From Rhodococcus sp. P1Y (lineage in GTDB: Bacteria > Actinomycetota > Actinomycetes > Mycobacteriales > Mycobacteriaceae), in NCBI RefSeq assembly GCF_003641205.1, contig NZ_CP032762.1, positions 1,302,001 to 1,366,000 of the forward strand: DNA of 64,000 nucleotides. The letters are read 5' to 3'. A program made the position numbers and the translations under genes. Position 1 is the first letter of the stretch, and each line of letters opens with the position of its first letter. The notes under the pieces were generated by a model. It was not told the DNA's origin, searched no databases, and saw only the letters and a program-made list of their open reading frames with translations. Shown here in pieces: positions 4,649 to 45,573 of the stretch.

Positions 4649-4761
4649 CACTGCGCAGGACCCTGTGGGACGCACGAGAGCCGGTGGTGAGGCGCTATGA
4701 CGTGCCACAAGCTAGGTCCCTCGCGTGTACTGGCAGCGCCGCGCCCGGTAGGTTGCCACGA

Positions 4762-5817
4762 ATGAGTGAGAATGTGACAGCCAGCGAGACCTTCGACCCG
4801 GCGGAGCATGTGCGTGCGATGGTCGGGCGTCACTATCGTGCCGCCGACTACTACGAGGTGGGGCGCGAAAAGGTTCGTGAGTACGCGCGCGCGGTGCAGG
4901 ATTTCAATCCTGTGCACTGGGAGGGTGACGACGCCAAGGCTCTGGGTTACGCCAACGTTGTCGCGCCGTTGACCTTCATGTCGCTGGTGGGGACCCTTGC
5001 GCAGAAGCGGCTGCTGCAGAAGATCGCCGTCGGATTCGATCTCAGTCAGATGCTGCAGACCGATCAAATTCTCCAGTACCACCAGCCCATCGTCGCAGGT
5101 GACCATCTCTACTGCGATGTCTCGCTCGACTCCTACAAGGAGGTCATGGGCAAGGACATGATGGTCACCAAGAACATCGTCTCCAACCAGCGCAACGAAC
5201 TGGTTCAGACGACGTACACGACGCTCCTCATCGGTCGCGAGGGCGACGTGGACAAGGGCATCGTCGAAGCCGCCGAGAACCTGGTCATGCAGGGTGCCAC
5301 GTCGTTGGCCGCGCGCGCAGGCGCCGCCGATCACGACGAGGAGGAGCAGGTCGAGCATCCACCGTTGGTCGTCGTGGACAACCAGTCTTCCGCTTCTGTG
5401 ACGTTCGAGAGCGTCGCCGTCGGAGACCTACTGCCCAGCAAGACATTCCGTCTCACCCGCGGGGACCTCGTCAACTACGCAGGCGTGGCGGGCGACGCCA
5501 ACCCCATTCACTGGAGTGAGCAGTTCGCCAAGCTGATCGACCTGGACAACGTCCTCGCGCACGGAATGCTGACCATGGGCCTCGGCGGGGGGTACGTCAC
5601 GGAGTGGCTCGGCGATCCCGGTGCCGTCAAGGACTACACCGTCCGCTTCACCGCACCCATTCCCGTCGATGGTCACCGTGCCGCGGAGATCAAGTTCGAC
5701 GGCAAGATCAAGTCGCTCGACGCCGAGACCCGCACCGCAGTCGTCGCGCTCAACGCAACGTTCGAGGGCAAGAGAATCTTCGGTCACCGTGCCACCGCGA
5801 CGGTCCAGTTGGCCTGA
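4762..5817 (+). CDS. fused MaoC-type (3R)-hydroxyacyl dehydratase
   Basis: A 351-residue protein with two hot-dog modules. The N-terminal module (residues 12-170) begins with a degenerate hydratase segment VREYARAVQDFNPVHW. The C-terminal module (205-350) has the catalytic hydratase-2 motif YAGVAGDANPIHWSEQFA followed by LAHGMLTMGLGGG, with the Asp/His dyad visible. This is the arrangement of mycobacterial HadA and HadB (FAS-II dehydratase subunits) joined into one chain, or of a peroxisomal-type hydratase 2. The likely role is dehydration of 3-hydroxyacyl chains in mycolate or fatty-acid elongation, inferred from the family. A weak ATG at 4762 begins MSENVTASETF. Confidence 0.85.
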   Translation: MSENVTASETFDPAEHVRAMVGRHYRAADYYEVGREKVREYARAVQDFNPVHWEGDDAKALGYANVVAPLTFMSLVGTLAQKRLLQKIAVGFDLSQMLQTDQILQYHQPIVAGDHLYCDVSLDSYKEVMGKDMMVTKNIVSNQRNELVQTTYTTLLIGREGDVDKGIVEAAENLVMQGATSLAARAGAADHDEEEQVEHPPLVVVDNQSSASVTFESVAVGDLLPSKTFRLTRGDLVNYAGVAGDANPIHWSEQFAKLIDLDNVLAHGMLTMGLGGGYVTEWLGDPGAVKDYTVRFTAPIPVDGHRAAEIKFDGKIKSLDAETRTAVVALNATFEGKRIFGHRATATVQLA

Positions 5818-5825
5818 CCCATCAT

Positions 5826-5878
5826 CGCTTGAATGGTCCACCCATACGAATAGCTGGTGTGGGTGGCTCATTCAAGCG
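5826..5878. terminator. bidirectional hairpin between convergent genes
   Basis: A 19-base arm (CGCTTGAATGGTCCACCCA) pairs with its near-exact complement at 5860-5878 with two mismatches, leaving a 15-base loop. It lies in the gap where the dehydratase gene and the exported-protein gene meet tail to tail, so it can end transcription from both. Confidence 0.7.
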
Positions 5879-5927
5879 TGAATGTGGGCCCTTCGTGGTG
5901 GGAAAGTGCACCGGCCACCGGATGCGT

Positions 5928-6797
5928 TCAGGAGAATGCGCGACGGATGTCCTCCGACGCGGTCATCGGTGCGAAACCGTCGACGATCACCTTCCGGCAT
6001 CCATCCAACTCGATCAGAACCGTTCGAGCGTCGACCTCGAACTGGGCACGACCGATCGCGACCGCCGATGCTGTATCCGTGCAGGGTTCGGACCTTGCCA
6101 GACTGTCGACCTGTACTTCGTTCCCGACGCTTCCGTCGAAGCGAGGACCTGTCGGCTCGAATGCGAAGCGGCAGAAGCCGTATGCGGAAAAGCTGGATTC
6201 GACTGGAGCGGTCCCTTCGAATGGAGGATCGAATGCCGTCGTGCATCCGCTCACCTGCTCGACCTGCTGCAAATCCAATTGGACGGGATGCGGCGTCGTC
6301 GATACCTCGTTCAGTTTCTTCACTTCCGCCAGCCCGCCGATCATGGACATGCCGCAATCGTCCACTGGATAACCGGGCCGGACTGCTCGGCCACCGTCGT
6401 CGAGTAGCCACATCTCGTCGACCGCGACGGCGCTGTACGACGCCATGCAGTACTTCGTCAGCCACCCCTTCTTCTCGGATGGTCTGTTCAGCGAACGTAG
6501 AACCGCGCCGAAGTCGCCTTCCCATCGTCGCTCCACGTATTCCGCGGTGAGCGAGCCCGACACGTCACCGTAATAGGGGTCGCACGTGATCGCGGCCACC
6601 GGCCTGAAGTCTTCGGGCACCTTCCCGTTGCCACTGAAGACGCCGGGCGCCGGTCCCACCGGATACGGCGGCTGACAGCGAAACTCCGATGCATCACCGA
6701 CATAGGCGTCCGGTCGCGCCGGGCCCGGTCCGAAGAAGTTCCACCCGACGACTGCGAGGACGGCGACAACCGCGAGGATGAGCAACCGCCGGAGCAT
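5928..6797 (-). CDS. exported eight-cysteine protein, family member A
   Basis: A 289-residue protein of unknown function. A single N-terminal hydrophobic segment (MLRRLLILAVVAVLAVVGW) should export and anchor it. The outer domain has eight cysteines in the contexts FRC, ITCD, KYC, DDCG, SGC, GFCRF, EPCTD and DGCR. Key blocks are YVERRWEGDF, DEMWLLDDGG and VLIELDGCRK. The same cysteine order and blocks recur in proteins encoded at 32582-33523 and 38359-39285, so it is a window-local paralog family, probably with four disulfides. ATG 6797 or GTG 6800 could be the start. It is divergent from the TspO-like gene by about 50 bases. Confidence 0.75.
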   Translation of the reverse strand: MLRRLLILAVVAVLAVVGWNFFGPGPARPDAYVGDASEFRCQPPYPVGPAPGVFSGNGKVPEDFRPVAAITCDPYYGDVSGSLTAEYVERRWEGDFGAVLRSLNRPSEKKGWLTKYCMASYSAVAVDEMWLLDDGGRAVRPGYPVDDCGMSMIGGLAEVKKLNEVSTTPHPVQLDLQQVEQVSGCTTAFDPPFEGTAPVESSFSAYGFCRFAFEPTGPRFDGSVGNEVQVDSLARSEPCTDTASAVAIGRAQFEVDARTVLIELDGCRKVIVDGFAPMTASEDIRRAFS

Positions 6798-6847
6798 CAC
6801 CCAACCGTAGTCGTTTGTGACCGTCCGAAATGGGCATTCCGTGCGGC

Positions 6848-7594
6848 ATGAAGGTCGGGATTCTGATCAGCGCAGTTGTGGCGATCGTGGGTTCGTTTGT
6901 CGGGTCCGGCGCGTGGGTGGGGACGCCCATCGCCGAAGCAGCGGGCGGGGCCCTCAGTGCGACGTCGACGTTGGTGGCGCCGGCTGGGCCTGCATTTTCG
7001 GTGTGGTCGATCATCTACGTGGGGTTTCTCGCCTACGCCGTCTGGCAGTTCTTCGCTGGACCCAGACAGATCCCGCTGCGGAAACCGATCGCGATCTCCA
7101 TGCTCCTCAACGCTGCGTGGATTCTCGCCATCCAGGTCGGCCTTCTGTGGCTCAGCGTTCCGATCATCGTCGTTCTGCTGGCGGTCCTCGTGCGGGTGTT
7201 CGTGCTGACGCAGGCCGATGCGCCCGAGAACACGCTCGACGCCGTCGCCACCGACGGCACGATGGGGTTGTATCTCGGCTGGGTGTGCGTTGCGACGATC
7301 GCCAACGTGACGGCGTGGCTCGTCGACATCGGTCTCACCGCGGGCGCCACGTTCTGGGCTGTCGCCGTGCTGGTGGTCGCCGCAGGCGTGGGCGTCGGCC
7401 TCGCTTGGTTTTCAGGCGGCGCGGTCGCCCCGGCCCTCGGCATCGTGTGGGGTCTGATGTGGATTGCTCAGGGGCGCTTGGCAGGTGAGCTCGACAACGC
7501 AACGGTCGGCTGGACCGCCGTTGCCGCATCCTTGGTCGTCGGTGTCTACACCGCTGTGATCAGAGCTCCGCAGCGTCGGGCGGTGTCTGTGTAG
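6848..7594 (+). CDS. TspO/MBR-like tryptophan-rich membrane protein
   Basis: A 248-residue integral membrane protein with about seven hydrophobic segments. The block GPAFSVWSIIYVGFLAYAVW and conserved tryptophans (NAAWIL, YLGWV, VWGLMWIAQG) resemble the tryptophan-rich sensory protein/TspO family, although it is longer than the classic five-helix TspO of about 160 residues. TspO proteins bind porphyrins or related ligands; no such role can be claimed here. Met 6848 starts directly at the first helix; an upstream ATG at 6830 would add six residues. Neither has a strong ribosome site. Confidence 0.55.
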   Translation: MKVGILISAVVAIVGSFVGSGAWVGTPIAEAAGGALSATSTLVAPAGPAFSVWSIIYVGFLAYAVWQFFAGPRQIPLRKPIAISMLLNAAWILAIQVGLLWLSVPIIVVLLAVLVRVFVLTQADAPENTLDAVATDGTMGLYLGWVCVATIANVTAWLVDIGLTAGATFWAVAVLVVAAGVGVGLAWFSGGAVAPALGIVWGLMWIAQGRLAGELDNATVGWTAVAASLVVGVYTAVIRAPQRRAVSV

Positions 7595-7678
7595 AGTCCC
7601 AACGTGTGTGCTCGATCCCGATGTGCGCGTCGACGTGACGCGGCTGCCCGACCGAACTGCGATCATTCTTTCGGTGAG

Positions 7679-8158
7679 ATGACCGAAGTCGATGTCAGGC
7701 GAGCTCACCCATACGAGGCGGACGCGTCGAAGATTATTCGTTCGTACTTGGAGGACATCGTTTCCCGATGGCATGGGAGGCCCGCTACCGCAGAGGAAGT
7801 CGACGAAGCGCTCGAAGACGAACCGGCAACCGATCTGTCCGAACCGGACGGGTACCTAGCGATCGCGTATGTCTCCGACGTGCCTGCCGGTGTTGGTGGG
7901 GTTCGGTTCCTGGAGAATGGGATTGCCGAACTAACCAAGGTGTTCACCGTGCGCGATCGCCGCGGAAATGGCGTCGGATCGATCGTGCTCGACCACCTCG
8001 AGCAAGTAGCTCGCGACGCAGGGTGCTCGTCGATTCGGCTGGATACTCGCTCCGACCTCCACGAGGCATGCCGAATGTACGAAAAACGTGGATATCTCCG
8101 CGTCGCGGCGTTCAGTGACGTCGTGTACTCGGACCGGTGGTACCGGTGGGACCTGTGA
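7679..8158 (+). CDS. GNAT family N-acetyltransferase
   Basis: A 159-residue single GNAT domain. The acetyl-CoA pyrophosphate loop is visible as VRDRRGNGVGSIVLDHLEQVA (R-x-x-G-x-G variant), preceded by strand 4 (IAELTKVFTV) and followed by SIRLDTRSDLHEACRMYEKRGY, the usual helix leading to the C-terminal strand. Substrate is unknown. Start ATG 7679 is chosen because upstream residues are not protein-like. The stop codon overlaps the GTG start of the epimerase gene, so the two are probably translationally coupled. Confidence 0.85.
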   Translation: MTEVDVRRAHPYEADASKIIRSYLEDIVSRWHGRPATAEEVDEALEDEPATDLSEPDGYLAIAYVSDVPAGVGGVRFLENGIAELTKVFTVRDRRGNGVGSIVLDHLEQVARDAGCSSIRLDTRSDLHEACRMYEKRGYLRVAAFSDVVYSDRWYRWDL

Positions 8159-9189
8159 AAACCGATGGCGCGAACGGTCGCGGTGGTACTACCGTGACGA
8201 CGGTGGAACCGCGATTTCGAATTCTCGTGACGGGCAGTTCCGGTCATCTCGGTGAGGCACTGGTACGTGTTCTGGGCTCACGAGGTCATCATGTGGTCGG
8301 GCTGGACACCTCGCCTTCTCCCTGGACGACGCACGTCGGGTCGGTAACCAATCGACGGGATGTTCGCGAGGCGCTCGACGGGATCGACGCGGTCGTCCAT
8401 ACTGCGACACTGCACAAGCCGCACGTCGGCAGTCACACCAAACAGGACTTCGTGGACACCAATGTGTCCGGGACGCTCACGATGCTGGAGGAGTCGGTCG
8501 CGGCAGGCGTCGGACGATTCGTATTCACCAGTTCCACCACGACTTTCGGTCGAGCGATGACTCCTCCGGAAGGCGACCCGGCGTCATGGATCACCGAAGA
8601 CGTGACACCAGTTCCTCGCAACATCTACGGCTCCACCAAAACTGCGGCCGAAGACCTCTGCCGGTTGTTTCACCAGGATCACGGTCTTGCACTGGTGATC
8701 CTTCGGACCTCGAGATTCTTCCCCGAAGCCGACGACCGTCCGGAGATCCAGGCCGCGTACCCCGACATGAACCTCAAGACCAACGAGTTGTTGTATCGCA
8801 GAGTCGATATCGCCGACGTCGTCGACGCCCACGAACGTGCATTGATCGTTGCGCCGGAGTTGGGATTCGGTCGCTACATCGTCAGCGCCACCACGCCGTT
8901 CGGAGACGAGGATCGAGCCGAATTGCGCGTCGACACACCGGCCGTGGTGCGGCGGTACTTCCCTCGATACGAGGAGATCTACGAGTCGCTGGGTTGGAGA
9001 ATGTTCCCGAGCATCGACCGCATCTACCTGAACACTCGTGCTCGACGGGATCTGAGTTGGGAGCCTGCGTACGGATTCGACTCAGCGCTGCGATGCCTGC
9101 AGAGCGGCGAGTCACCGTCCAGTCCGCTTGCAATGCTCATCGGCGCCAAGGGCTATCACGACAGGCCGACCGGCCCCTACACCTCGTAG
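8155..9189 (+). CDS. NAD-dependent epimerase/dehydratase (extended SDR)
   Basis: A 344-residue extended short-chain dehydrogenase. The Rossmann glycine motif VTGSSGHLGEALV lies near residues 24-36, with DAVVHTATL and FVFTSSTTTFG strands after it. The catalytic YGSTK (YxxxK) is near residue 158. The C-terminal half has substrate-domain features (LRTSRFFPEADD, DIADVVDAHERAL). Such enzymes act on nucleotide sugars or steroid-like ketones; the substrate is not evident. GTG 8155 overlaps the stop of the acetyltransferase gene (GTGA). A second GTG at 8194 is an alternative. Confidence 0.8.
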   Translation: MKTDGANGRGGTTVTTVEPRFRILVTGSSGHLGEALVRVLGSRGHHVVGLDTSPSPWTTHVGSVTNRRDVREALDGIDAVVHTATLHKPHVGSHTKQDFVDTNVSGTLTMLEESVAAGVGRFVFTSSTTTFGRAMTPPEGDPASWITEDVTPVPRNIYGSTKTAAEDLCRLFHQDHGLALVILRTSRFFPEADDRPEIQAAYPDMNLKTNELLYRRVDIADVVDAHERALIVAPELGFGRYIVSATTPFGDEDRAELRVDTPAVVRRYFPRYEEIYESLGWRMFPSIDRIYLNTRARRDLSWEPAYGFDSALRCLQSGESPSSPLAMLIGAKGYHDRPTGPYTS

Positions 9190-9971
9190 GTCGTTCGGCC
9201 GAATCGAGCGAGACAGTGCCACACGCGCTTGAGTGTTTGAAGGTCGTGACTGCCTGTCCGCGCGGCGTCGCCGATGATCGCCGGAGTCAGAACAGGTCCG
9301 AGAGCCTGTGCGAGTGTGGCGGACTCGGCACCTCGATAGAGGGGATCAAAATCCGACGTCATCAAGCGAAATCCCCGATGGAAACGGATGTTGCACCCGA
9401 GAGACGATGCCGCGGACTCGATCGCAGTTTCACGAAACGTCGGGTCGAGCACCACAGCGTCGACGTCTTCGTCGAACCGTACGGGCCCGTGAACGTGAGC
9501 CTCGACGCAGTCGTCGAGATCGTCGAAACCGGACGCGTCGGCGAGAGCGCATAGGTGAGGGAGCGCGTCACGGTCACCGAAATCGGTCGGCTCGAACACA
9601 GAATCCGGGAAGCAGAAGGTGATTCTGTCGAGGACAGCGGGTTTCAGAACCACATACGATGATCCGAATCGTATTGCGCCGCCGTAGGGATCGGCGTTTC
9701 GATTCCACGCGCCGTAGACGGGCCGCTCGTGCGGTTCCGACTGATCGTATCGACCGTCGAACAGTCGTGATTCCCACTGCCACCGGTCACCGCCTGCAAA
9801 TGCCGTCAGCCCGCCGTTCGAGATTCCGGTCGCGAACTGCGATCGATAGGCACCGTCGTGTGCCATCGACTCGATCACGGTTCGGCCTGCATGCGGCCAG
9901 TCCGGATGAAACTGCAAGGTCACTGCGGGCGGGCACTCGGACACCGATTCGGTGGATCGGTGAGGGGTCAT
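9177..9971 (-). CDS. DUF3626-type protein
   Basis: A 264-residue protein of a family known only as a domain of unknown function. The recognisable core is QFHPDWPH, FATGISNGGLTAFAGGDRWQWE, LFDGRYD, RPVYGAWN and GGAIRFGSSYV, followed by RITFCFPDS, the conserved order of DUF3626. No catalytic chemistry can be assigned. ATG 9971 overlaps the stop of the upstream FAD oxidoreductase by four bases, so the two are co-translated. Its last 13 bases run tail to tail into the epimerase gene end. Confidence 0.75.
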   Translation of the reverse strand: MTPHRSTESVSECPPAVTLQFHPDWPHAGRTVIESMAHDGAYRSQFATGISNGGLTAFAGGDRWQWESRLFDGRYDQSEPHERPVYGAWNRNADPYGGAIRFGSSYVVLKPAVLDRITFCFPDSVFEPTDFGDRDALPHLCALADASGFDDLDDCVEAHVHGPVRFDEDVDAVVLDPTFRETAIESAASSLGCNIRFHRGFRLMTSDFDPLYRGAESATLAQALGPVLTPAIIGDAARTGSHDLQTLKRVWHCLARFGRTTYEV

Positions 9972-11649: not shown

Positions 11650-11728
11650 ATCAGGCCCCGGGTACTAGGGGAACCGCGGCACGAACGCCGCGGACCCAGG
11701 GTTACCGTGCGCCAGTAAACCATACGGA

Positions 11729-11800
11729 GGCGCCTTCGGCGCATGTGCACGGAAATCCATAGTGGGCTATGTACTTTCGTTCACGTACGGCGGAGCCGCC
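11729..11800. repeat. palindromic repeat, copy 1
   Basis: A long imperfect inverted repeat. GC-rich outer arms (GGCGCCTTCGGCGC / GCGGAGCCGCC region) enclose a core ATGTGCACGGAAATCCATAG ... CTATGTACTTTCGTTCACG. The same core recurs at 14145-14230 and 40588-40648. The right arm contains the last codons and the TGA stop of the ABC permease gene, read on the minus strand. Confidence 0.8.
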
Positions 11801-12842
11801 CACGCACGACCGCGACCGACGCAGCGCACGCGAGCGCGGCAACTATCAAAGCCAACACAACTTCGGTGATCTGGAATCGCCAGAACTGACTGTCCTCGTG
11901 ATACTCGAGTTCGAACCGGTCAGCTCCCTGGGCTGCGATGCATTCGGTGCGCTCCAGATCGCTTCGCGCTTGCAACTCGTCGGATCTGATCAGCCAGTCC
12001 CCGTAGGTCTCATCGGACCGTTGCGTCATCTCGTCCCAGAACGAGTCGGCGGGCGCGCAGAGCCGATAGTCGATGTCGACGACGTTCCCGTCCGCGTCGA
12101 CGTAATTCTGGTCGATCGTCCACCGGTTCGATTCTCTGAAGGATATGTATTCGGCGGGTCCGGAGACGGCGCTGAGTTGCTTCGTCTCCACCGAGGGTGC
12201 TGCGTAGTGCTGGCGGACAGCGGTCGGAAGCACTACGAGCAATCCGACGGTGACGATCAGGGTTACGACCATGGCGCCGATCGTGTTGCGCAGCAACAGT
12301 GCAAGTAGGCTACCGATCATCAATGCAGCAGCGGTGTAGGCGCCGGGCATCAACCCGGAGGTTTCGAAAATTGGATAGTCGAACCTGGAGGCATCAATTC
12401 CCCCGGCCGTCTGCCAGGGGCCGGTCTTGTGTAGCGAACGCATCCAGGTGAACGTCGCTCCGAGCACCGCCATCGCCAGCACGATCGGCACGAACACGAC
12501 CAGGACGCGCGAGAAGTACCATCGCAACGGGCTGACGGACTGGGTCAGCGACAGCACATGCGTTCCTCGTTCGATGTCGCGCGAGAACACAGCCACACCG
12601 ACGAACAACCCGATCAGCGCGGGCAGGGCGACCGTCATCAATGTCGTTGCAGTCAAGACCGTTTGAGACATGCACTCCGCAGTTCCACCGCCGTAACAGA
12701 AGAAGAGCGTGCCAAAACTGTAGAAGGTGGGGTAACTACGTAGGGCCAATGATGCTGCGATGGTCGCGGCGGCAATCACTACGATGACCGCGAGGGTTCC
12801 GAGAAGTGTTGCGCGAAACTGTCGGTACGTTACCCAGAACAT
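11781..12842 (-). CDS. ABC transporter permease
   Basis: A 353-residue membrane protein starting MFWVTYRQFRATLLGTLAVI, a helix, then about five more helices and a large extracytoplasmic loop (about residues 200-310) that contains two cysteines. This is the ABC-2 type permease layout seen in YtrA/GntR-linked actinobacterial exporters. The start overlaps the stop of the ATPase gene by one base (TGATG), so the pair is coupled. The C-terminal residues RGRLRRT and the stop are encoded inside palindromic repeat copy 1, which suggests that the element inserted at, or reshaped, the gene end. Confidence 0.8.
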   Translation of the reverse strand: MFWVTYRQFRATLLGTLAVIVVIAAATIAASLALRSYPTFYSFGTLFFCYGGGTAECMSQTVLTATTLMTVALPALIGLFVGVAVFSRDIERGTHVLSLTQSVSPLRWYFSRVLVVFVPIVLAMAVLGATFTWMRSLHKTGPWQTAGGIDASRFDYPIFETSGLMPGAYTAAALMIGSLLALLLRNTIGAMVVTLIVTVGLLVVLPTAVRQHYAAPSVETKQLSAVSGPAEYISFRESNRWTIDQNYVDADGNVVDIDYRLCAPADSFWDEMTQRSDETYGDWLIRSDELQARSDLERTECIAAQGADRFELEYHEDSQFWRFQITEVVLALIVAALACAASVAVVRGRLRRT

Positions 12843-13687
12843 CAGCCCACCTCGCCGAGATGCGCGAGCACGACGTCGTCGAGAGTCGCGGCCGAGATGG
12901 TCCATTCACCGTTCGATGCCGGCCGTCTCCCACGTACTACATGGGTCGACGACTTCGACGCGAGGGCCGAACCGATGATGTGCCCGTCACCTGGATCGGG
13001 CGTTCCGGACCCGGTCAGAACGTAGTGTTGATTCACGATCTCCTCTGTCTCCCCGTCCAATTGCATCTTTCCTCGACGCAGCAGAAGTAACCGATCGGCG
13101 ACGTCGGCGAGCTCGGCCAACACATGTGAGGACAGCACAATCGTCGTTCCTCGTTCGGCGGCGTCACGCATCAATGTTTGAGCCACGGCGCGCCGGGCGA
13201 CGGGATCGAGGTCGGCGAGCGGTTCGTCCAGCAGTACGACCTCCGGAAGTCGGCCCAGCACGAGCGCAATCGCAACGCGCGTCCGCTGGCCCGGTGACAG
13301 CCGCTTGATCCTCGTGTCCAGCGTGATGCCGGCGTCGTCGACGATTCGGGCGGCGTAAGCGTCGTCCCATCGGTCGTTGGTGTCGCGACCGAATCGGAGT
13401 GTTTCCTCGACGCTGAAGCGGTGGAACAGAGGCTTGTGCTGCGCGAGGTAGGACAGGCCCGGGGCGATCCCGCCGTCGTCGACGGTTTTGCCGAGGACCG
13501 TTACTTCGCCGGAATCCGGCCGCAGCAGGCCGCCGATCACCGACATCAACGTCGATTTCCCAGCCCCGTTCGCGCCGACGAGGGCAGTGATCGATCCCTG
13601 CTGGAGAGCGAACGAGCACTGGTCGAGTACGGGGCGTCGGCGAAACGATTTGCTCACGTCGATCACCTCGAGCACTGGGTTCGTCAC
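12842..13687 (-). CDS. ABC transporter ATP-binding protein
   Basis: A 281-residue nucleotide-binding protein. Walker A is GANGAGKST near residue 38, the signature is LSPGQRTRVAIAL near 130, Walker B is VVLLDEP near 150, and the H-loop is VLSSHVLAEL near 185. The last 70 residues extend past the ATPase core and may contact the permease. GTG 13687 starts four bases after the GntR stop. Together with the GntR regulator and the permease it forms a three-gene operon of the YtrA-YtrB type. Substrate is unknown; lipid, peptide or antibiotic export is common for the type. Confidence 0.9.
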   Translation of the reverse strand: MTNPVLEVIDVSKSFRRRPVLDQCSFALQQGSITALVGANGAGKSTLMSVIGGLLRPDSGEVTVLGKTVDDGGIAPGLSYLAQHKPLFHRFSVEETLRFGRDTNDRWDDAYAARIVDDAGITLDTRIKRLSPGQRTRVAIALVLGRLPEVVLLDEPLADLDPVARRAVAQTLMRDAAERGTTIVLSSHVLAELADVADRLLLLRRGKMQLDGETEEIVNQHYVLTGSGTPDPGDGHIIGSALASKSSTHVVRGRRPASNGEWTISAATLDDVVLAHLGEVG

Positions 13688-30553: not shown

Positions 30554-30994
30554 TCACCAATGCCACGCCTGGCCCCCGACGTTCTCGATGGTGCGCTGCA
30601 GGACTCGGATGGTCGTGACGAAGTCCTCCTCGGTAATTCCTTGCATGCGTTCTGTCTGCAGATCGCGCTGGACCGCTGCCGCGCGGTCGAATTGTTCGGC
30701 GCCTGCATCGGTGAATCTCAGGCGCGAATCGATCTGCTGGATCCAGCCTTTCGCGGTCGCCGTGTCGACTGCGTCGACGATCGCCTCGGGGGTGTCGTTG
30801 TGTCCTAATTTCTCGATCACTTCGGTGCTGTCGACTCCGCTGGGTGACAGCGAAAGCTGATGCAGAAGCCATGATTCGGGTTGGGTGATACCGACGTCGT
30901 GCAATGCGCCGCGAATGCGCGCACCGACAGCCTCGCTCGCGCGGCGAGTCCAAAATCCGATGGGTTGACGCTCTGGTGGTTGCATTGGCTTCAT
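30554..30994 (-). CDS. MarR-type winged-helix regulator
   Basis: A 146-residue protein. The central winged helix runs through WLLHQLSLSPSGVDSTEVIE ... TPEAIVDAVDTATAKGWIQQ ... RLRFTDAGAEQFDRAAAVQR. N- and C-terminal helices (RASEAVGARIRGALHDVG; VTTIRVLQRTIENVGGQAW) would make the dimer, as in MarR proteins. Target and ligand are unknown. It lies 32 bases downstream of the methyltransferase gene on the same strand. Confidence 0.75.
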   Translation of the reverse strand: MKPMQPPERQPIGFWTRRASEAVGARIRGALHDVGITQPESWLLHQLSLSPSGVDSTEVIEKLGHNDTPEAIVDAVDTATAKGWIQQIDSRLRFTDAGAEQFDRAAAVQRDLQTERMQGITEEDFVTTIRVLQRTIENVGGQAWHW

Positions 30995-31026
30995 GGATTC
31001 ACGTAGAACCGAAACCATACTCGAGG

Positions 31027-31620
31027 TCAAGAGCGCACGGCGACGATCGCGCCGTGAGGCCGGTATCCGACGCCGGTGCGGGTGTGGGTTTCGACGACCT
31101 CGAATCCCGCGTCGATCACACGTGCGCTCAACTCTGGAACGGGCCATCGGTACGCGGTGACGACCTTGTGATCGAACGGTTCGAGTACCGGTGATTCGAA
31201 AAACCCGATCACCAGTGAACCACCTGGTCGCAGGGCGCGTGCGAATTCCTTCAGGGGGACGTGCACTGAGCCGGGGGTGTGGTGGATGAGTGAGTACCAG
31301 GACAATATTCCTGCGATGGAGCCAGATGCTGCATCGAGGTTCTCGGCTGTACCGACGTCGAACCGGCAATCCGGATGCGCGGTGTGGGCGTGCTCGATGA
31401 ATGCGGGCGTCGGATCGATCCCGCGGACATCGCATCCACGCGCGGCGAGATAGTCGGTCCACTGACCAGGCCCGCAGCCGACGTCGATGACAGGGCCGTC
31501 AATTGCCGTCGCCCACTGCGTGACGAGGTGCAGGTCGGACGGGTGAGCCGAGTCGATCGAACCCAGCAGCCGCGAGTACTCCTCAGCGCGGTTGGAGTAT
31601 GCGGTGCGAACTTCGTCCAT
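31027..31620 (-). CDS. class I SAM-dependent methyltransferase
   Basis: A 197-residue enzyme. The SAM-binding motif I VIDVGCGPGQWTDYLAARG is near residue 45, motif II is VRGIDPTPAFIEHA, and LSWYSLIHHTPG sits at the motif III position. EFARALRPGGSLVIGF follows, typical of UbiE/biotin-type methyltransferases. Substrate unknown. ATG 31620. It is divergent from the phosphotransferase-like gene (gap 32 bases). Confidence 0.88.
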   Translation of the reverse strand: MDEVRTAYSNRAEEYSRLLGSIDSAHPSDLHLVTQWATAIDGPVIDVGCGPGQWTDYLAARGCDVRGIDPTPAFIEHAHTAHPDCRFDVGTAENLDAASGSIAGILSWYSLIHHTPGSVHVPLKEFARALRPGGSLVIGFFESPVLEPFDHKVVTAYRWPVPELSARVIDAGFEVVETHTRTGVGYRPHGAIVAVRS

Positions 31621-31652: not shown

Positions 31653-32585
31653 ATGCTGCCAGTCGGGTTGTCCATGCTGTGGGAGTCGGTGGATCCCACA
31701 GATGCACTGCGCGAACGGTTCGGCTTCGACAGTCTGGACGCTCTGTCGGAGTGGGTCTCCGCGTCGCTACGTAAGAACTGGGGAATTCGCTCCGGCGAGT
31801 GTTCCCGTGTGGTGATCAGTGATCGGAACGCGATCGTGTGGGTGAGCAGCGACGCCGGCAACCTGGTGGTGAAGTGGTCGTGCGCACGCGACCGCTTCGG
31901 GGCTCTGGAAGCATCGACAGCACTGGTGCGTGTGTGCGCCGACCACGGAGTTCCCGTCGCGGCACCGATCCGAACTGTCGACGGGCTGGACCGGGTGATC
32001 GTCGATGCTCTGTCGGTAACAGTTCAATCGGAACTGATCGGTCACTGGCTCGACGTGACCGACCATGCAGCAGTCTTCTCGGCCGGCGCGAGGTTGGCAG
32101 ACGTGCACCGTGCGCTGGAGGGCGTCCATCGGAATGCCGCGCAGCCCGCCGTCGAACTACGGAGCCGCATCGAAGCATGGCTGGCCGACCGAGACCACGG
32201 CGCCGCACCGGATGCCTCGCGTCGACTCGCGGAATCGATGTCCGATGTACCTGATCTCGGCGACGATGTACAACTGGTCCACAACGATTTTCGTGCTGCC
32301 AACATACTGATTCGGGACTCGGAGGTGGTGGGCGTACTCGACTTCGACGAGGTGGTGCTCGGGCATCGAGTCAACGATCTGGCGAAGGCGTGCACGTACC
32401 TGGGCACATTGTTCACCGACTGGGGTCCGACACCCTCGTCGGTGCAACAGATGCTGCGTGCCGGGTACGAATCGGTCCGTCCCCTTCGGCCCGAAGAAGC
32501 TCGTTGGTTCGAACCGCTCCTGCTGTGGCACGGTCTGCTCGCGATCCCGTGCGAGGACACCGCCGGATGGGCGGCCGCGTTGTGA
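31653..32585 (+). CDS. phosphotransferase/kinase-like protein, APH family
   Basis: A 310-residue protein of the aminoglycoside phosphotransferase fold. The catalytic loop is LVHNDFRAANIL (Brenner motif HxDxxxxN) and the metal motif is GVLDFDEVVLGHR. The N-lobe VVKWSCARDRFG carries the likely ATP lysine. Family members phosphorylate aminoglycosides, choline, homoserine or other alcohols, so resistance cannot be inferred. Its stop overlaps the start of exported-family member C. Confidence 0.82.
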   Translation: MLPVGLSMLWESVDPTDALRERFGFDSLDALSEWVSASLRKNWGIRSGECSRVVISDRNAIVWVSSDAGNLVVKWSCARDRFGALEASTALVRVCADHGVPVAAPIRTVDGLDRVIVDALSVTVQSELIGHWLDVTDHAAVFSAGARLADVHRALEGVHRNAAQPAVELRSRIEAWLADRDHGAAPDASRRLAESMSDVPDLGDDVQLVHNDFRAANILIRDSEVVGVLDFDEVVLGHRVNDLAKACTYLGTLFTDWGPTPSSVQQMLRAGYESVRPLRPEEARWFEPLLLWHGLLAIPCEDTAGWAAAL

Positions 32586-33523
32586 GGCGGGTGTTCTGCG
32601 TTGTGTTGTGCGCGCTGCTGACGACGTCGTGCGGGCATCTACCGTTCTTCGGAGGCGACATCGTGTCCTATCGGCCCGACACTGCCGCATTGGCCGATTC
32701 CGCAGATTGCATGGCCGAGAACGTGTATACCGGCATCACGGGGTTGGGGCCATGGGATACGGCGATCACCGACGATGTACCCGAACCTGGTTATCCACCG
32801 CCGTATTTCGAGCCAGTCGCGATGGCGCGGTGCGAGATCTCCTTGACTGCAGACAACGTAGAGACCCTCGACACTGTACGGCTGGACGGTGATGTCGACG
32901 CCGTTATGGACGCGTTCAGGGTGGACTCGAAGCGCTACTCGGATTTCGTCTCGGCCAGCTGTGCCTACGAGGTATTTCCGCCCGTTGGACTGTGGTTCGT
33001 AAACAAGGCAGGCAAAGCCTTTCGTCCGGTGTGGCCTTCGTCGCCGTGCGGACTTCAGGACGGGCCGCTGGCATCTATGCGCACCTTGGAAGAGGTGTCG
33101 CGGTCGGTGCATGTCACGGGGTACGACGTCGACTACACGGGTTCGTGCGGCGCATCTTTCGACCAGTTTTTCGGGACCACCGACATGGACGTCCAGTCGG
33201 TGGAGATGTATCCGAGCCTGTTCATGCCGACCGACGACGTCGGGTACCTCCAGCTGTGCCGCCACCCGGTGGGTTCGGATGCAAGCGCCCCAATCATTTT
33301 GTCCCAGAACGAGAGTGCAGCGCTGATCGCGGGTGTTGCACAAGCGCCTGTTGCGCAGCCGTGCTCCGCGGTCGCTACCAGTATCGCATCGACGCAGCTG
33401 CGCAGGCCCGACCAGTCGGGTGGGGCGATGGTCGCGTTCGAACTCGACGGCTGTCGCCGAGCATCGGGATTCGGGGCGTACCGAGAGATTCCCGAAAACC
33501 TCGGTGCACTACTCGGTCAGTGA
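32582..33523 (+). CDS. eight-cysteine lipoprotein, family member C
   Basis: A 313-residue predicted lipoprotein. The signal is VRRVFCVVLCALLTTSC with lipobox LTTS/C, then eight further cysteines (ADCMA, ARCE, SASC, SPCG, GSCGA, LQLCRH, QPCSA, DGCRR). The final block VAFELDGCRRASG aligns with VLIELDGCRK of member A and ELQVELDGCRRML of member B. Function unknown. GTG 32582 overlaps the stop of the kinase-like gene; ATG 32567 is a close alternative. Its end overlaps the convergent phosphatase-like gene. Confidence 0.72.
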   Translation: MRRVFCVVLCALLTTSCGHLPFFGGDIVSYRPDTAALADSADCMAENVYTGITGLGPWDTAITDDVPEPGYPPPYFEPVAMARCEISLTADNVETLDTVRLDGDVDAVMDAFRVDSKRYSDFVSASCAYEVFPPVGLWFVNKAGKAFRPVWPSSPCGLQDGPLASMRTLEEVSRSVHVTGYDVDYTGSCGASFDQFFGTTDMDVQSVEMYPSLFMPTDDVGYLQLCRHPVGSDASAPIILSQNESAALIAGVAQAPVAQPCSAVATSIASTQLRRPDQSGGAMVAFELDGCRRASGFGAYREIPENLGALLGQ

Positions 33524-35673: not shown

Positions 35674-36228
35674 TCAGAACCTCTGCACGAATCGATACCA
35701 GTCGCCCTCGTACTCCTTGTATCCGAAGTCGCCGTCGAAACGGGGGTCGCCGAGGTAGGGCGCTCCGTTCGGCAGGTAGGCCAAGCCGATGCCGTCGATC
35801 AACCCGCCTTCGATGAAGAACACGCAACCGCCGTCCATCTTTCGAACCGACTCGATTCTGTACACGCCGATAGTGCGGTTTTCGGTCGCTTCCTGGCACT
35901 CTGCCGCGGCCTCGGTCAACGCACCCTCGCTCAGCGCGAAGGCCACCCGCGATGGCACCGACAGCATCACGAGCCCCAGTGTCGCAACGACAAACACTGG
36001 GGCGGCGGCACTCCATCGCCACGCCCGATACTTGAACCATCCGATCAGCGTGGCGACCAACCACACGGCCCCGAGTATCAACAAAGCCCACCCTGCGAGC
36101 GCGAAGTACACGAAGTCGACCACCGGTGGCATGAACGACCAGAGGACCACCCCGCAGGCCAGCGCGACGAGCACTGCAGTGATTCCGGTGAGCCAGAGCC
36201 ACCACTGCGGACGTGCTCTGTCGGTCAT
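35674..36228 (-). CDS. three-helix membrane protein, family member 1
   Basis: A 184-residue protein of unknown function. Three helices (residues 10-30, 38-60, 78-98) are followed by an outer domain with one Cys pair (AECQEA, GGCVFF) and a C-terminal block IGLAYLPNGAP ... YEGDWYRFV. It is paralogous throughout to the protein encoded at 40633-41196 (same helices, PSRVAFALSEGAL versus PSTVAFAMSKGAL, GDWYRFV versus GDWYEFV). ATG 36228. It is divergent from a multi-helix membrane gene. Confidence 0.75.
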   Translation of the reverse strand: MTDRARPQWWLWLTGITAVLVALACGVVLWSFMPPVVDFVYFALAGWALLILGAVWLVATLIGWFKYRAWRWSAAAPVFVVATLGLVMLSVPSRVAFALSEGALTEAAAECQEATENRTIGVYRIESVRKMDGGCVFFIEGGLIDGIGLAYLPNGAPYLGDPRFDGDFGYKEYEGDWYRFVQRF

Positions 36229-36268
36229 CTTCACACTCTTGCACACGCTGTGTGACAAAGTTGTTGAT

Positions 36269-37531
36269 GTGATTGCACGACGCATACTCGCGCACCTGAC
36301 CGTGCTCCTCGGCGCGTTCGCGGCGGTGTGGGCGATGACAGTGACGACACCCCGCACCTTTGCATACGTTGCAGGTGGTGACCGAATCGACGTATTGCTC
36401 GACAGCGCAGCAACCGCCGCTACCATCTCCGCCGTCGTTGCTGCGGTGGTTGCCACCACTTGTACCGGAAAGCGAACGGCATACGTAGCAGCGGGTTTCG
36501 GCATCTTCCTGCTTGCGGCCGTGTCGCTTTTCGCGTTCATCGGTCAGCTGCACATTCGGGCGATCGCGGCTGGGTTGATTCTCGGCGGCTGCGCGGCGCT
36601 GATCGGTAGTCGCGATCATCGAACGTTGCAGTCCGCGTTGATCGTCGGGGCAATTGCGGGCATTGTGTTGGTGAGACCGATCGAAGCGAGTCGGACGCGC
36701 TACCGCGACTACATCACCGACGATATGCCGCAGACCTACCTGCTGATTGCGCTGGTGGTGTTCGCGATCCTGCTCGTCGCGTCGCAAATCGGCAATTCCT
36801 CGGACCCCGTCGAAGCCTCGGACAGTGTCGAAGGTAGAAGCCGAGTTCTGTTGGTGGCGATAGCAGTTCCTATCGCCGGGCTGGTTCTGTACTGGATGTT
36901 CGAACGTTCGGTGGACTCACTCGGTGCGGGCGGAGCGATGCAGGATCGGTGGCTGACCGGCCTCGTCGTCATTCCACTTCTCGTCGGTGCGGCCTTTGTG
37001 CTCCCTGGTCTGACGGGCACCGTCGTGCTTGCTGCACTGGCATTCCTCGCGTCGATGACGGCGGGGTCGCTCGGATTTCCGACGGCGCTGCTGTTCGTCG
37101 CGCTGATCGTGGTGGGCGCGTTGGTGGGGTGGCGACGGCCATCGCCGCTGATCGCCCTGGGCGTGTTGGCGGTGGTTGCAGCGACCGGTGTGTTCGCCGA
37201 ATCCTCGCTCGAAGACGTACAACTCGCGGCCAACACCCTGGTCTTGCCGGTGGCCGTCGGCGTGCTGTACGCCTCGTTGCTGCCGACGAGTGCGCCCGCC
37301 GCCGCGATTGCGGTGACTACGCCGATCTGTGTGTCGGTCCCCATCGTCGCGGAGTACGGGTGGACCGCATACACCCCGCTGACCTCTATCGAACCCACCT
37401 TCAGCCCGAGCACGTGGGTGTGGACGTCCACCGCCGTCGGAGTCGGTTCGGTTCTCGCGGCCGGTGCCGCGCTGATGGTCCTCAGAGCTCGCAGAAGCGG
37501 ATCTGACTCTTCGTCCTCAGCAAGAACTTAA
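36269..37531 (+). CDS. polytopic membrane protein of unknown function
   Basis: A 420-residue protein with about 12 hydrophobic segments (for example LTVLLGAFAAVWAMTV, YVAAGFGIFLLAAVSLFAF, LTGLVVIPLLVGAAFVLPG, VLAALAFLASM). No transporter signature is recognised. The GTG at 36269 (VIARRILAHLTV) is chosen since the upstream frame is antisense to the neighbouring gene. Its last four bases overlap the stop of the convergent small membrane protein. A transporter or sensor role is possible, not shown. Confidence 0.65.
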   Translation: MIARRILAHLTVLLGAFAAVWAMTVTTPRTFAYVAGGDRIDVLLDSAATAATISAVVAAVVATTCTGKRTAYVAAGFGIFLLAAVSLFAFIGQLHIRAIAAGLILGGCAALIGSRDHRTLQSALIVGAIAGIVLVRPIEASRTRYRDYITDDMPQTYLLIALVVFAILLVASQIGNSSDPVEASDSVEGRSRVLLVAIAVPIAGLVLYWMFERSVDSLGAGGAMQDRWLTGLVVIPLLVGAAFVLPGLTGTVVLAALAFLASMTAGSLGFPTALLFVALIVVGALVGWRRPSPLIALGVLAVVAATGVFAESSLEDVQLAANTLVLPVAVGVLYASLLPTSAPAAAIAVTTPICVSVPIVAEYGWTAYTPLTSIEPTFSPSTWVWTSTAVGVGSVLAAGAALMVLRARRSGSDSSSSART

Positions 37532-37743
37532 CTCTGGGCCCGAGGGCGAGCCCAGAACCAGAGAAGTGCGCCGAGAACGGGCATTGCCAGAACGAACACG
37601 CACCACCAGAACTTCGCGCCGCTGCGCGGGTGGTCGGTACGCAGGATCGACACCCACGCGATGACCACGAGGAGCGCCCACATCGCCGCAATGGCCATCC
37701 AGGCGAGGTCGAAGCCCAGTGGCAAGGTTGGGTTGGAGTCCAT
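37528..37743 (-). CDS. small two-helix membrane protein, PLD-N-like
   Basis: A 71-residue protein with helices at 13-32 and 45-63: WMAIAAMWALLVVIAWVSIL then FWWCVFVLAMPVLGALLWFW. The spacing resembles the phospholipase D nuclease N-terminal membrane domain that occurs alone in actinobacteria. It starts ATG 37743, 65 bases after the stop of the 46-residue membrane protein gene, and may be in one operon with it. Confidence 0.6.
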   Translation of the reverse strand: MDSNPTLPLGFDLAWMAIAAMWALLVVIAWVSILRTDHPRSGAKFWWCVFVLAMPVLGALLWFWARPRAQS

Positions 37744-37807
37744 GGGCAGCCATTGTTCGTCGTGGACCTCGACGCTCTGACACCGACCCCGGACTGCTGT
37801 TGTCTCG

Positions 37808-37948
37808 CTACTCGAACACGAGCGTGGAAAGGGCGATCACGACGGCAACGAAAACGGCAAGCGTCACCCAGCCCTCCCACGTCCGTGGGCTGTATCCCCA
37901 GCCGATTCGCTTGGGGCCGAACCATCGGCGGGGCGGGTTCAGTTTCAT
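37808..37948 (-). CDS. 46-residue single-helix membrane protein
   Basis: A very short gene. It reads MKLNPPRRWFGPKRIGWGYS then WEGWVTLAVFVAVVIALSTL: an Arg/Trp-rich cytosolic start and one C-terminal helix. AAGGACAAGT upstream gives a good ribosome site, and its ATG overlaps the stop of the preceding gene (ATGA). The coupling and the pattern, known from small bacterial proteins with a PKRIGWGYxPxTWEGW block, make it a real gene. Function unknown. Confidence 0.75.
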   Translation of the reverse strand: MKLNPPRRWFGPKRIGWGYSPRTWEGWVTLAVFVAVVIALSTLVFE

Positions 37949-38253
37949 ACTTGTCCTTCCTGGTGGATGTCGAACGGCATGTGATTGGCCCAGCCGTTGC
38001 GGGCGACCAGGCGCACATGCTGGCCGTCGTGAACATCGAACGTTCTATGTGTGGCACCGAGCTCGGCCCGGGTGCCTCGATAGCGGATGAACACCCGGAC
38101 ATCGACCCGTCCCGGATCGACCTCGTGCGTAGCAGGAATTGTCCACGATTGGATGTGTTCGGTGCCGTCCAGGGAGACGACAGGCCTCGCGAAGATCCTG
38201 AGGAAAGCGCGGTTGACCCAATGTGCGTCAAACCGAACGTCGATCTTTGTCAT
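37945..38253 (-). CDS. small hypothetical protein
   Basis: A 102-residue soluble protein, mostly beta strands (MTKIDVRFDAHWVNRAFLRI, DVRVFIRYRGTRAELG, HVRLVARNGWANHMPFDI). No family recognised. GGGGTGGGA precedes ATG 38253. It is translationally coupled to the 46-residue membrane protein, so the two may work together. Confidence 0.6.
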   Translation of the reverse strand: MTKIDVRFDAHWVNRAFLRIFARPVVSLDGTEHIQSWTIPATHEVDPGRVDVRVFIRYRGTRAELGATHRTFDVHDGQHVRLVARNGWANHMPFDIHQEGQV

Positions 38254-38358
38254 TCCCACCCCCTGGTCCGTTACCCAGACTAACGGTCGGGAAGGTGGCG
38301 AGCAACAGTTCAGGGGTCGGGTCGACTCGATGGAGAACCTGTCTGCGGTTACGGGCTG

Positions 38359-39285
38359 TCAATCGGATTCCGTGATCGCGGTGATCACATCATCGGGAGC
38401 AGCGAGCGGGAGGTAACCGTCGGCGAGCATTCGTCGGCACCCGTCGAGTTCGACCTGAAGTTCGACGGGCGCCCAATTGCTCGATGCTGCACCGAACGTG
38501 GACGTCGTTGCGATAGTCGATGCTCGTTCGGTACACGGCTCGGCCGGACGGGCGTCGGCCAGCTCGATCGGGGTATCGCGGGTGTCCGCGCCAAGGAAGA
38601 CCGGGGCAGGGCCTGAGACGTCGAAGCGACAGAAACCGGATGAACTGATACGAAAGTCGTTCGCGGAGAAAGTCCCCGGTGTTGCAGGCGTCAGGATGGG
38701 GGAACAGGAGAAGAACAGTCCGATGCCGGCAGTGTCGATACGCACGTCATGCTCGGTCGAACCGATCTCGTCGAGCAACTCGACCTCGTACAGGCCGGCT
38801 GTCTTCTCGAATCCGCAGTCGCTCAGTGGATGTGATGGCTCCATCGCGTTTCCCTGTGCGTCGACGAGCCACATGTCGACCTGCGCGGGGAGGCTGTAGT
38901 CGCCGCACGCAGCCGTGAACAACGACCGACGCTCGGAAGGAGCATTCAATTCCTCTATGGCCGAGGTGAAGTCGCCTGCGTATCTGCGCTCGACGTAGCC
39001 GGTGGTTCCATCGGCGGAGACGTGGTCATTCAGGCCGTTATCGCACACCACAGCTTCCACCGGTGTGAACGTGTCGGGAACGGTGCCCCGCGGAGGCCGC
39101 GGCGCCGGCGTCGGTACCGGCTCGATCAGAAAGCCTTCGACCTCTTGCGGTGGTGCGCACGAAAACACCTCGACCGGGCCGATACCCGCGACCGTCCGCT
39201 CATCGGGCTCGGTAGCCACCCCGTACAGGACCAGCAGCCCGAGAATGGCGACGAACAGCGTCAGGCCCGTGCGTCGTCCGATCAC
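38359..39285 (-). CDS. exported eight-cysteine protein, family member B
   Basis: A 308-residue protein with an N-terminal helix (RRTGLTLFVAILGLLVLYGV) and an outer domain with eight cysteines (FSCAPP, VVCDN, TAACG, SDCGF, FSCSP, GFCRF, EPCTE, DGCRR). Blocks YVERRYAGDF, VDMWLVDAQGNAMEPSHP and VELQVELDGCRRML match member A closely. Function unknown. GTG 39285 overlaps the stop of the HxlR gene (GTGA), which couples the two; an HxlR link is therefore likely for this copy. Confidence 0.75.
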   Translation of the reverse strand: MIGRRTGLTLFVAILGLLVLYGVATEPDERTVAGIGPVEVFSCAPPQEVEGFLIEPVPTPAPRPPRGTVPDTFTPVEAVVCDNGLNDHVSADGTTGYVERRYAGDFTSAIEELNAPSERRSLFTAACGDYSLPAQVDMWLVDAQGNAMEPSHPLSDCGFEKTAGLYEVELLDEIGSTEHDVRIDTAGIGLFFSCSPILTPATPGTFSANDFRISSSGFCRFDVSGPAPVFLGADTRDTPIELADARPAEPCTERASTIATTSTFGAASSNWAPVELQVELDGCRRMLADGYLPLAAPDDVITAITESD

Positions 39286-39605
39286 GAACCGGTGGCCTTC
39301 GCTGCGGCTCGTTCGCCCCACAGGGCAATGGGGTCGAGCAGAGTGTTCAGCTCGGCGCCGTCGTCGCTGAGTCGGTAGTCGACCCGCAGCGGAAATCCCT
39401 CGCCTGCAGTCCGAACGACAAGTCCGTCACGGACAAGCTCCCGAAGTTGGTCGGTGAGCACCTTCTCCGAAATCCCGTCGATCGCCCGTCGCAGTTGAGC
39501 GAACCGCTGGTCGCCCTCGGCCAGTCGCCACAGGATCGTGGGTTTCCACTTGGACCCGACCAGGTCGAAGACGACATTGACCCCGCACTGTTGCCGGTCT
39601 TGCAT
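39282..39605 (-). CDS. HxlR family regulator 1
   Basis: A 107-residue winged-helix regulator. It starts ATG 39605 behind CGAGG, with the usual near-N-terminal cysteine (MQDRQQCGVNVVFDLVGSKW) that senses thiol stress or electrophiles in the family, then ILWRLAEGDQRFAQLRRAI and GISEKVLTDQLRELVRDGLV. Upstream ATG/GTG codons as far as 39674 would run into the operator palindrome. It is divergent from the imine reductase-like gene and is coupled to exported-family member B. Confidence 0.85.
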   Translation of the reverse strand: MQDRQQCGVNVVFDLVGSKWKPTILWRLAEGDQRFAQLRRAIDGISEKVLTDQLRELVRDGLVVRTAGEGFPLRVDYRLSDDGAELNTLLDPIALWGERAAAKATGS

Positions 39606-39631
39606 AGCGGCCTCGCTCACCGACGGATTGA

Positions 39632-39651
39632 TACGCACCTTTTTGTGCGTA
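39632..39651. promoter_or_regulatory. HxlR-type operator
   Basis: An exact inverted repeat TACGCAC-N6-GTGCGTA lies between the divergent HxlR and imine-reductase-like genes. The short half-sites on a six-base A/T spacer resemble HxlR operators, so it probably serves both genes. Confidence 0.7.
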
Positions 39652-39688
39652 CTCGACTCGCCCCATGCTGCCATTGATCATTGAGGGC

Positions 39689-45038: not shown

Positions 45039-45070
45039 GATGCGTTCCCCTCGGTGACTGAGCAGATGTT

Positions 45071-45087
45071 GGTTACTTCTTGTAACC
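45071..45087. promoter_or_regulatory. HxlR-type operator 2
   Basis: GGTTACTTCTTGTAACC: an inverted repeat of six-base arms around a five-base spacer, in the 76-base gap between the MFS and HxlR genes. This is the GTTAC-type operator commonly seen with HxlR regulators. Confidence 0.75.
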
Positions 45088-45114
45088 GACTTCAGGGTGG
45101 GTCATCATGGATCG

Positions 45115-45573
45115 ATGGCACAAGAAGGCACTTTGCAGTCAGCCAGTTACCCCAAGGGAAGTGACCAGGTCGGCGACGAATGCTGCCGAAACGGCCGAGA
45201 CGCATATCAATGGGACACCCGCGAGGACTGTGAGGTTCGCCAGATACTCGACCGCGTCGCCGACAAGTGGTCCCTGCTCGTCATCGCCCTGTTGAAGGAA
45301 CAGACGTTTCGTTTCGGTGAGCTGAGACGTGAAATCGACGGCATCAGCACAAGGATGCTGACCGTGACGCTCCGCAACCTCGAGCGCGACGGTCTCGTCG
45401 AGCGCCGCATGTACCCGGAGATACCACCGAGGGTGGAGTACCGACTGTCCGAACTCGGCCGCACGTTGTTGGGGACGATCCAGGCTCTCGTCCAGTGGAC
45501 CGAGCAGCATCAGCCCCAGATCGTGAGTGCACGTCGAGCGTTCGACGCTGAGGCAACCCGAACTCAGCCGTGA
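45115..45573 (+). CDS. HxlR family regulator 2
   Basis: A 152-residue winged-helix regulator with an N-terminal extension containing a Cys-Cys pair (DECCRNGRDAYQWDTREDCE) before the HTH VRQILDRVADKWSLLVIALL ... FRFGELRREIDGISTRMLTV. It ends with LVQWTEQHQPQI. The extra cysteines may sense thiol-reactive compounds. It probably represses itself and the divergent MFS transporter. ATG 45115. Confidence 0.87.
   Translation: MAQEGTLQSASYPKGSDQVGDECCRNGRDAYQWDTREDCEVRQILDRVADKWSLLVIALLKEQTFRFGELRREIDGISTRMLTVTLRNLERDGLVERRMYPEIPPRVEYRLSELGRTLLGTIQALVQWTEQHQPQIVSARRAFDAEATRTQP

Follow-up and report, generated by a model that had tools for sequence, protein, structure and literature searches.

A stretch of 64,000 nucleotides from Rhodococcus sp. 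P1Y (contig NZ_CP032762.1, positions 1,302,001 to 1,366,000; hereafter the window) encodes three proteins, A, B and C, that appear to be exported and carry eight cysteines in a common order. This raises the question of whether the three genes represent one family, how they came to lie in the same region and what their products may do at the cell surface. The coordinates proposed for them in a first-pass annotation were right, and the genes and their immediate upstream partners are as follows:

5928..6797, minus strand: member A, 289 aa, with eight cysteines behind an N-terminal membrane anchor
31653..32585, plus strand: APH-family phosphotransferase gene, immediately preceding C with a 4-base overlap
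32582..33523, plus strand: member C, 313 aa, a probable lipoprotein in which the eight cysteines are conserved
38359..39285, minus strand: member B, 308 aa if counted from the GTG at 39285, with eight cysteines behind an N-terminal membrane anchor
39282..39674, minus strand: gene for an HxlR-type transcription regulator, immediately preceding B with a 4-base overlap

Pairwise BLASTP comparisons established that A, B and C belong to one family, with 34% identity between A and B over 303 aligned positions (E 3e-47), 28% between B and C over 235 (E 2e-15), and 27% between A and C over 237 (E 1e-13). The B-C and A-C alignments span only residues 58-269 of A, 76-297 of B and 67-293 of C; thus, the signal or anchor ends contribute nothing, and the relationship is significant without the termini. 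The common order of eight cysteines, located in A at residues 41, 72, 117, 148, 185, 209, 239 and 267, extends in register to the wider family. C1 to C8 are present, respectively, in 125, 127, 127, 127, 127, 127, 123 and 126 of 127 aligned full-length relatives, a set restricted to rows longer than 250 residues, from which fragments, single-domain forms and copies that were broken or split had been removed, and each is found in 135-139 of the 139 rows of a wider alignment. The sequence blocks that had been quoted around the cysteines hold approximately, since A reads IELDGCRK and WLLD, and C reads FELDGCRR and WFVN.

The description of A and B as membrane-anchored could be retained, and C is a probable lipoprotein. 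Both A and B carry a hydrophobic segment at the N-terminus, without a lipobox, preceded by only about 4-7 residues (approximately 4 on the inner side in A), as read by eye. C opens, also by eye, with a signal-peptide-like segment and matches a relaxed PROSITE-type lipobox pattern and not the stricter G+LPP pattern. By the same reading, none of the three contains a cytoplasmic anti-sigma domain ahead of the transmembrane helix. In the family at large, a lipobox-type cysteine precedes the eight in 75 of 127 rows, its place being taken otherwise by a hydrophobic anchor, and the relaxed lipobox pattern was matched in 71 of 139 rows. Judged from these sequence features, A, B and C are probably exported and anchored. 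The longest open reading frame for B begins at 39321; most B relatives have M.GRR-type starts, which favours the GTG at 39285.

The GTG start codons of C and B overlap the TGA stop codons of the APH-like kinase gene and of the HxlR gene, respectively. With a threshold of 40% identity, the loci of relatives showed neither of these two arrangements. The neighbours of A include a MaoC-type dehydratase gene, among others. Four open reading frames of the region, at 30554-31462 (minus strand), 35789-37531, 37630-38283 and 6830-7594 (the last three on the plus strand), matched nothing in Pfam or NCBIfam under the cut-offs applied, and relatives of the one at 35789-37531 are present in other genomes.

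The eight-cysteine part appears to be built from two halves with four cysteines each, which in A lie as follows:

6348..6683, minus strand: first four-cysteine half of A, residues about 39-150, with C41, C72, C117 and C148
5985..6254, minus strand: second four-cysteine half of A, residues about 182-271, with C185, C209, C239 and C267, and the block IELDGCRK

Around the cysteines, a pattern is repeated that consists of a strand-like stretch leading to a cysteine, a helix-like stretch, a cysteine, a hairpin-like stretch and a cysteine mostly followed by G or R; these assignments are a reading of the alignment by eye and not a prediction. A narrower comparison of half against half, based on the Rhodococcus-type alignment, gave no match. 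When 117 and 116 more diverse halves were used, the free alignment paired C2, C3 and C4 with C6, C7 and C8. Over the core columns, the N-half and the C-half scored 19.8 against each other, a value reached by none of 100 column shuffles (mean 9.6, sd 1.9, maximum 14.8) and by none of 100 shuffles in which the cysteines were kept (mean 9.9, maximum 15.8). Other sets yielded scores of 17.2 and, raw, 12.2. With the widest set, from which only scores were used since hhalign renumbers columns, the core columns scored 15.3 compared with 9.4 for shuffles (sd 1.8, maximum 15.2; 0 of 60, twice). The corresponding hhalign probabilities were only 0.4-5%, all of them below 6%.

Seven shorter relatives within a 30-member alignment of the family carry the first half only, and not one of the 30 rows departs from C1-C4. 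In five of the seven (L025, L034, L104, L107 and L108) the matched stretch is free of stop codons. The remaining two, L035 and L103, contain a stop within it and may therefore be cut-down two-half genes. Searches that listed second-half pieces for broken copies revealed none on the same contig as L025, L026, L034 or L107. Taken together, the sequence comparisons make it likely, though not proven, that the eight-cysteine part consists of two related four-cysteine domains that arose by internal duplication. With such a duplication and a free-standing first half, disulfides inside each half would be the simplest pairing, and we infer this arrangement for the family.

The view that A, B and C match no recognised domain family was borne out, since all three gave zero matches in Pfam, NCBIfam, PHROGs and PADLOC. 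Searches of the PDB with the family profile returned nothing convincing, and the best match, a stretch of a glucuronyl esterase (E 0.22 and 0.062), was judged to be due to chance. Among the 30 aligned members, Pfam matches involved four families with one member each (best E 0.098), and the best NCBIfam match (E 0.017) was LptM-like and concerned 5 of the 30; these were attributed to chance or to signal peptides. Nothing on an eight-cysteine family of this kind was recognised among the titles and opening lines of abstracts that literature searches listed. The eight-cysteine family is real, without a name, and scattered.

The genome of Rhodococcus sp. P1Y contains four family places, namely A, B, C and a fourth copy, and six-frame searches with either B or C as the query returned the same set. 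The fourth copy (G000:C1:1122393-1123082; L004:1315-2097) is 50% identical to C and ends soon after the sixth cysteine, and this cut-down copy is probably a decaying gene. Three of the four copies fall within 33,390 bases, an arrangement with a chance of 0.0004 under random placement of four copies in the 5,868,661-base genome. Clustering varies among related genomes: G023 has four matches within about 31 kb, and the matches of G017 and G001 lie far apart.

Protein searches retrieved 17 proteins with B, 28 with C and 65 with a 43-row alignment, and the organisms named were Rhodococcus, Rhodococcoides and Prescottella, together with one Gordonia metagenome entry. A search of 41 genomes, in which as many as 52 candidates per genome were scored, gave a match in 18 of 25 from the genus of the window and in none of 16 others. 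The genomes of the genus hold 0-5 matches each, several of them with stops or in pieces, which points to gain and loss rather than to a stable repertoire. Named genome records (45 loci) added Cryobacterium, Microbacterium, Luteimicrobium, Paractinoplanes and Williamsia, and full-length relatives beyond the genus occur in the first four of these as well as in others.

Wider draws of genomes, searched with wider profiles, provided counts that are lower bounds, because few candidates were scored per genome. At E 0.01, matches were obtained for the order in at least 22 of 298 genomes (7 candidates scored), and in at least 11 of 118 genomes of the class at the same threshold when the first half alone served as the query (33 scored). 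A second draw from the class yielded at least 26 of 345 genomes at E 0.001 (6 scored), of which 15 showed E below 1e-10 and the other 11, weak or short, were not counted as members. In the phylum, at least 5 of 296 genomes gave a match (7 scored), and the four besides the P1Y genome were weak, with E 3.7e-5 or worse. Within the order of G398, two of eight genomes had a match. Hence, the family is patchy in the genus and scattered in other Actinomycetota, and is not general. Some records deserve a separate remark. A record titled Kitasatospora arboriphila NRRL B-24581 (L048) shares approximately 13 kb with Williamsia muralis (L046), with matching open reading frames in the same order and the long ones mostly above 92% identity, so that the record looks mislabelled or contaminated. 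The lineage lookup places three Rhodococcus sp. IEGM records (L052, L056 and L060) in Cyanobacteriota, which must be a labelling error.

In a tree of 75 chosen rows, A and B group with Rhodococcus and Prescottella proteins in a single clade, and C belongs to a second one, where Williamsia also occurs; both clades are well supported and separated by long branches. This deep split implies that the three genes are old, separate lineages and not recent copies of one another. The history put forward in the first-pass annotation, repeated duplication inside the window, is accordingly not supported in that form, since the A/B and C subfamilies have counterparts in other Rhodococcus and A, moreover, lies in a conserved gene order in another genome (G006, locus L209). 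The counterpart of A in that locus is 61% identical, its immediate neighbours are 92% and 57% identical to those in the window, and the others mostly range between 61 and 91%, with one at 41%. A is therefore on the faster side, still inside the range of its neighbours. At positions 11708-13659 of the same locus (G006:C1:5296001-5316000), counterparts of two genes from positions 43596-45570 of the window adjoin the counterpart of A.

A possible function is suggested by a few distant relatives. Three genomes, each from a different family (G325, G784 and G899), encode proteins in which the eight-cysteine part comes after a short stretch at the N-terminus and a transmembrane-like helix; in each case, the gene immediately follows that of a SigE-type sigma factor, with both on one strand. 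These sigma genes match TIGR02983 with E values of 5.9e-12 (G325; first part of the sigma factor only, below the cut-off), 7.8e-47 (G784) and 1.9e-45 (G899). The sigma stop codon and the start codon of the membrane protein overlap by 4 bases (ATGA) in G784 and G899, and 6 bases separate the two genes in G325. In the G325 sigma gene (L153:2101-2763), the later part of the reading frame looks unrelated, perhaps owing to a frameshift, and this gene may be broken. NCBIfam scans recognised no anti-sigma domain in any of the three membrane proteins. Those of G784 and G899 gave no match, and that of G325 showed a weak match to CU044_5270 (NF038083) over residues 14-124 (E 0.0011; 18.8 of 100 bits), below the curated cut-off, and no other family member scanned matched this entry.

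The G784 locus (L210; G784:C29:32001-50000, positions 4730-9314) contains three ECF-type sigma genes in about 5 kb; of the further two, one is assigned to the SigE family by NCBIfam and the other to the ECF type by Pfam. A second sigma gene, the one located after the eight-cysteine gene, precedes a membrane protein with the same kind of N-terminus and a different outer part. Two sigma genes thus directly precede membrane proteins with similar N-termini and dissimilar outer domains, and such pairs are what might be expected if anti-sigma-like proteins could exchange their sensors. Among 138 loci with a member, many of them redundant (78 non-redundant members with DNA, some with short flanks), the sigma link was found in G784 and G899 only, and the G325 case came from a search with its own sigma factor. 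The window gave no SigE-type match, and no sigma gene lies beside A, B or C. Apart from single cases, no neighbour was common to different genera in the loci compared (E 1e-25). These cases are a malate synthase gene with neighbouring pieces in Cryobacterium (L072) and Microbacterium (L081), at different positions beside the family gene, an alpha/beta hydrolase pair (L049 and L082), and two weak generic pairs.

We propose, giving this reading about equal weight for and against, that A, B and C each represent an anchored, stand-alone copy of a binding module that is exported, rich in disulfides and composed of two related halves, probably for a ligand in the envelope or outside the cell. A and B would be held at the outer face of the membrane by the N-terminal helix and C by its lipid, and all three would bind an envelope or outside ligand. 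In the few distant relatives described above, the same module would form the outer domain of a membrane protein of anti-sigma-like type, whose gene is paired with that of a SigE-type sigma factor, and binding on the outside may relieve or impose control on the inner sigma factor, in the way reported for lysozyme and RsiV. Because hardly any part of A, B or C would reach into the cytoplasm, they would need to act through a partner, or else hold or mask the ligand. The ligand binding suggested in the first-pass annotation is plausible on the basis of the sigma-linked relatives. We infer ligand binding and sensing for the family as a whole; a sensory role is plausible in some relatives, and the function proposed here for the three window genes is putative.

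This layout resembles that of RsiV, an ECF anti-sigma factor and lysozyme receptor (PMC5014341). The place of its outer domain is taken by the eight-cysteine part in the three distant relatives, behind a transmembrane-like helix and a sigma gene, whereas A, B and C lack both a cytoplasmic domain and a sigma neighbour; the likeness is one of layout. A free lipoprotein tied to SigE-type envelope signalling, as C might be, is found in CseA of Streptomyces coelicolor, which, according to PMC8999054, acts with the CseBC two-component system on SigE upon wall damage. Here the likeness is one of role.

Several other explanations need to be weighed against an anchored binding module. The proteins might be accessory components of the envelope that support one of its enzymes structurally or as chaperones and bind a protein partner rather than a signal. 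Their lipoprotein or anchored state, the lack of a match to any enzyme family and the presence of several divergent copies per genome would suit such a role, but 7 of the 25 genomes of the genus gave no match, the loci compared revealed no recurrent envelope-gene neighbour, and the family occurs in Microbacterium and Cryobacterium, which are not known to have a mycolate envelope. We therefore regard this explanation as unlikely. A role as lipoproteins that confer immunity to toxins or exclude phages, with a diversified and patchy repertoire, would account for the variation of 0-5 matches per genome, several of them divergent or broken, and for the clustering of three of the four P1Y copies. 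However, A, B and C have no match in PADLOC or PHROGs, the part of the window genes that was scanned included no toxin, phage or defence family among their neighbours, and the sigma-linked relatives do not fit, which makes this explanation very improbable.

The spacing of the cysteines led us to consider exported inhibitors of proteases or other enzymes, of the Streptomyces subtilisin inhibitor (SSI) type, in which the hairpin loop between C3 and C4 would block an outside or envelope protease. The SSI family comprises small exported actinobacterial domains with two disulfides. C3 and C4 are 30-31 residues apart, and the order of strand and cysteine, helix, cysteine, hairpin and cysteine agrees with the cysteine motif that we took to be typical of SSI proteins and that was then seen in the SSI sequences examined (29 classic sequences from 30 loci and 20 divergent stretches, 49 in all). 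Some SSI forms also have lipobox-like starts. An initial profile of the N-half scored 18.3 against SSI, a value reached by 2 of 100 and 0 of 100 shuffles. Wider profiles, scored without shuffles, nevertheless gave 14.5 and 16.5 with a confident match that ended before C3, lipoprotein-type SSI relatives were no better (12.6 and 14.0), and the C-half gave nothing, as 66 of 100 and 77 of 100 shuffles scored as high. Furthermore, A, B and C did not match PF00720 at E values up to 10, nor was there a match in their own genome, and the likeness is confined to the spacing of one cysteine pair, the second pair being placed otherwise than in the eight-cysteine family. An SSI fold for the family was consequently rejected, the profile match being partial at best, weaker with wider profiles and lost for the second half, and an inhibitor role of this kind appears quite unlikely.

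An anchored, two-half binding module is the reading that we prefer for A, B and C. A bolder version, which we put forward tentatively and consider somewhat doubtful, is that the eight-cysteine part represents a new actinobacterial outer-sensor domain composed of two duplicated four-cysteine units and swapped between SigE anti-sigma-like receptors and free anchored or lipidated copies. Rhodococcus, as far as seen, would have the free copies only, perhaps as co-receptors or decoys for the same class of ligand. The family is present in many actinobacterial genera, yet neither Pfam nor NCBIfam has an entry that the members scanned match convincingly, and its eight-cysteine part forms, in three genomes, the outer part of an apparent sigma-factor switch. 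If it is indeed a sensor module, the sigma gene pairs would offer a direct route to its ligand through sigma activation, and the ligand found in this way may be transferable to the free copies of Rhodococcus.
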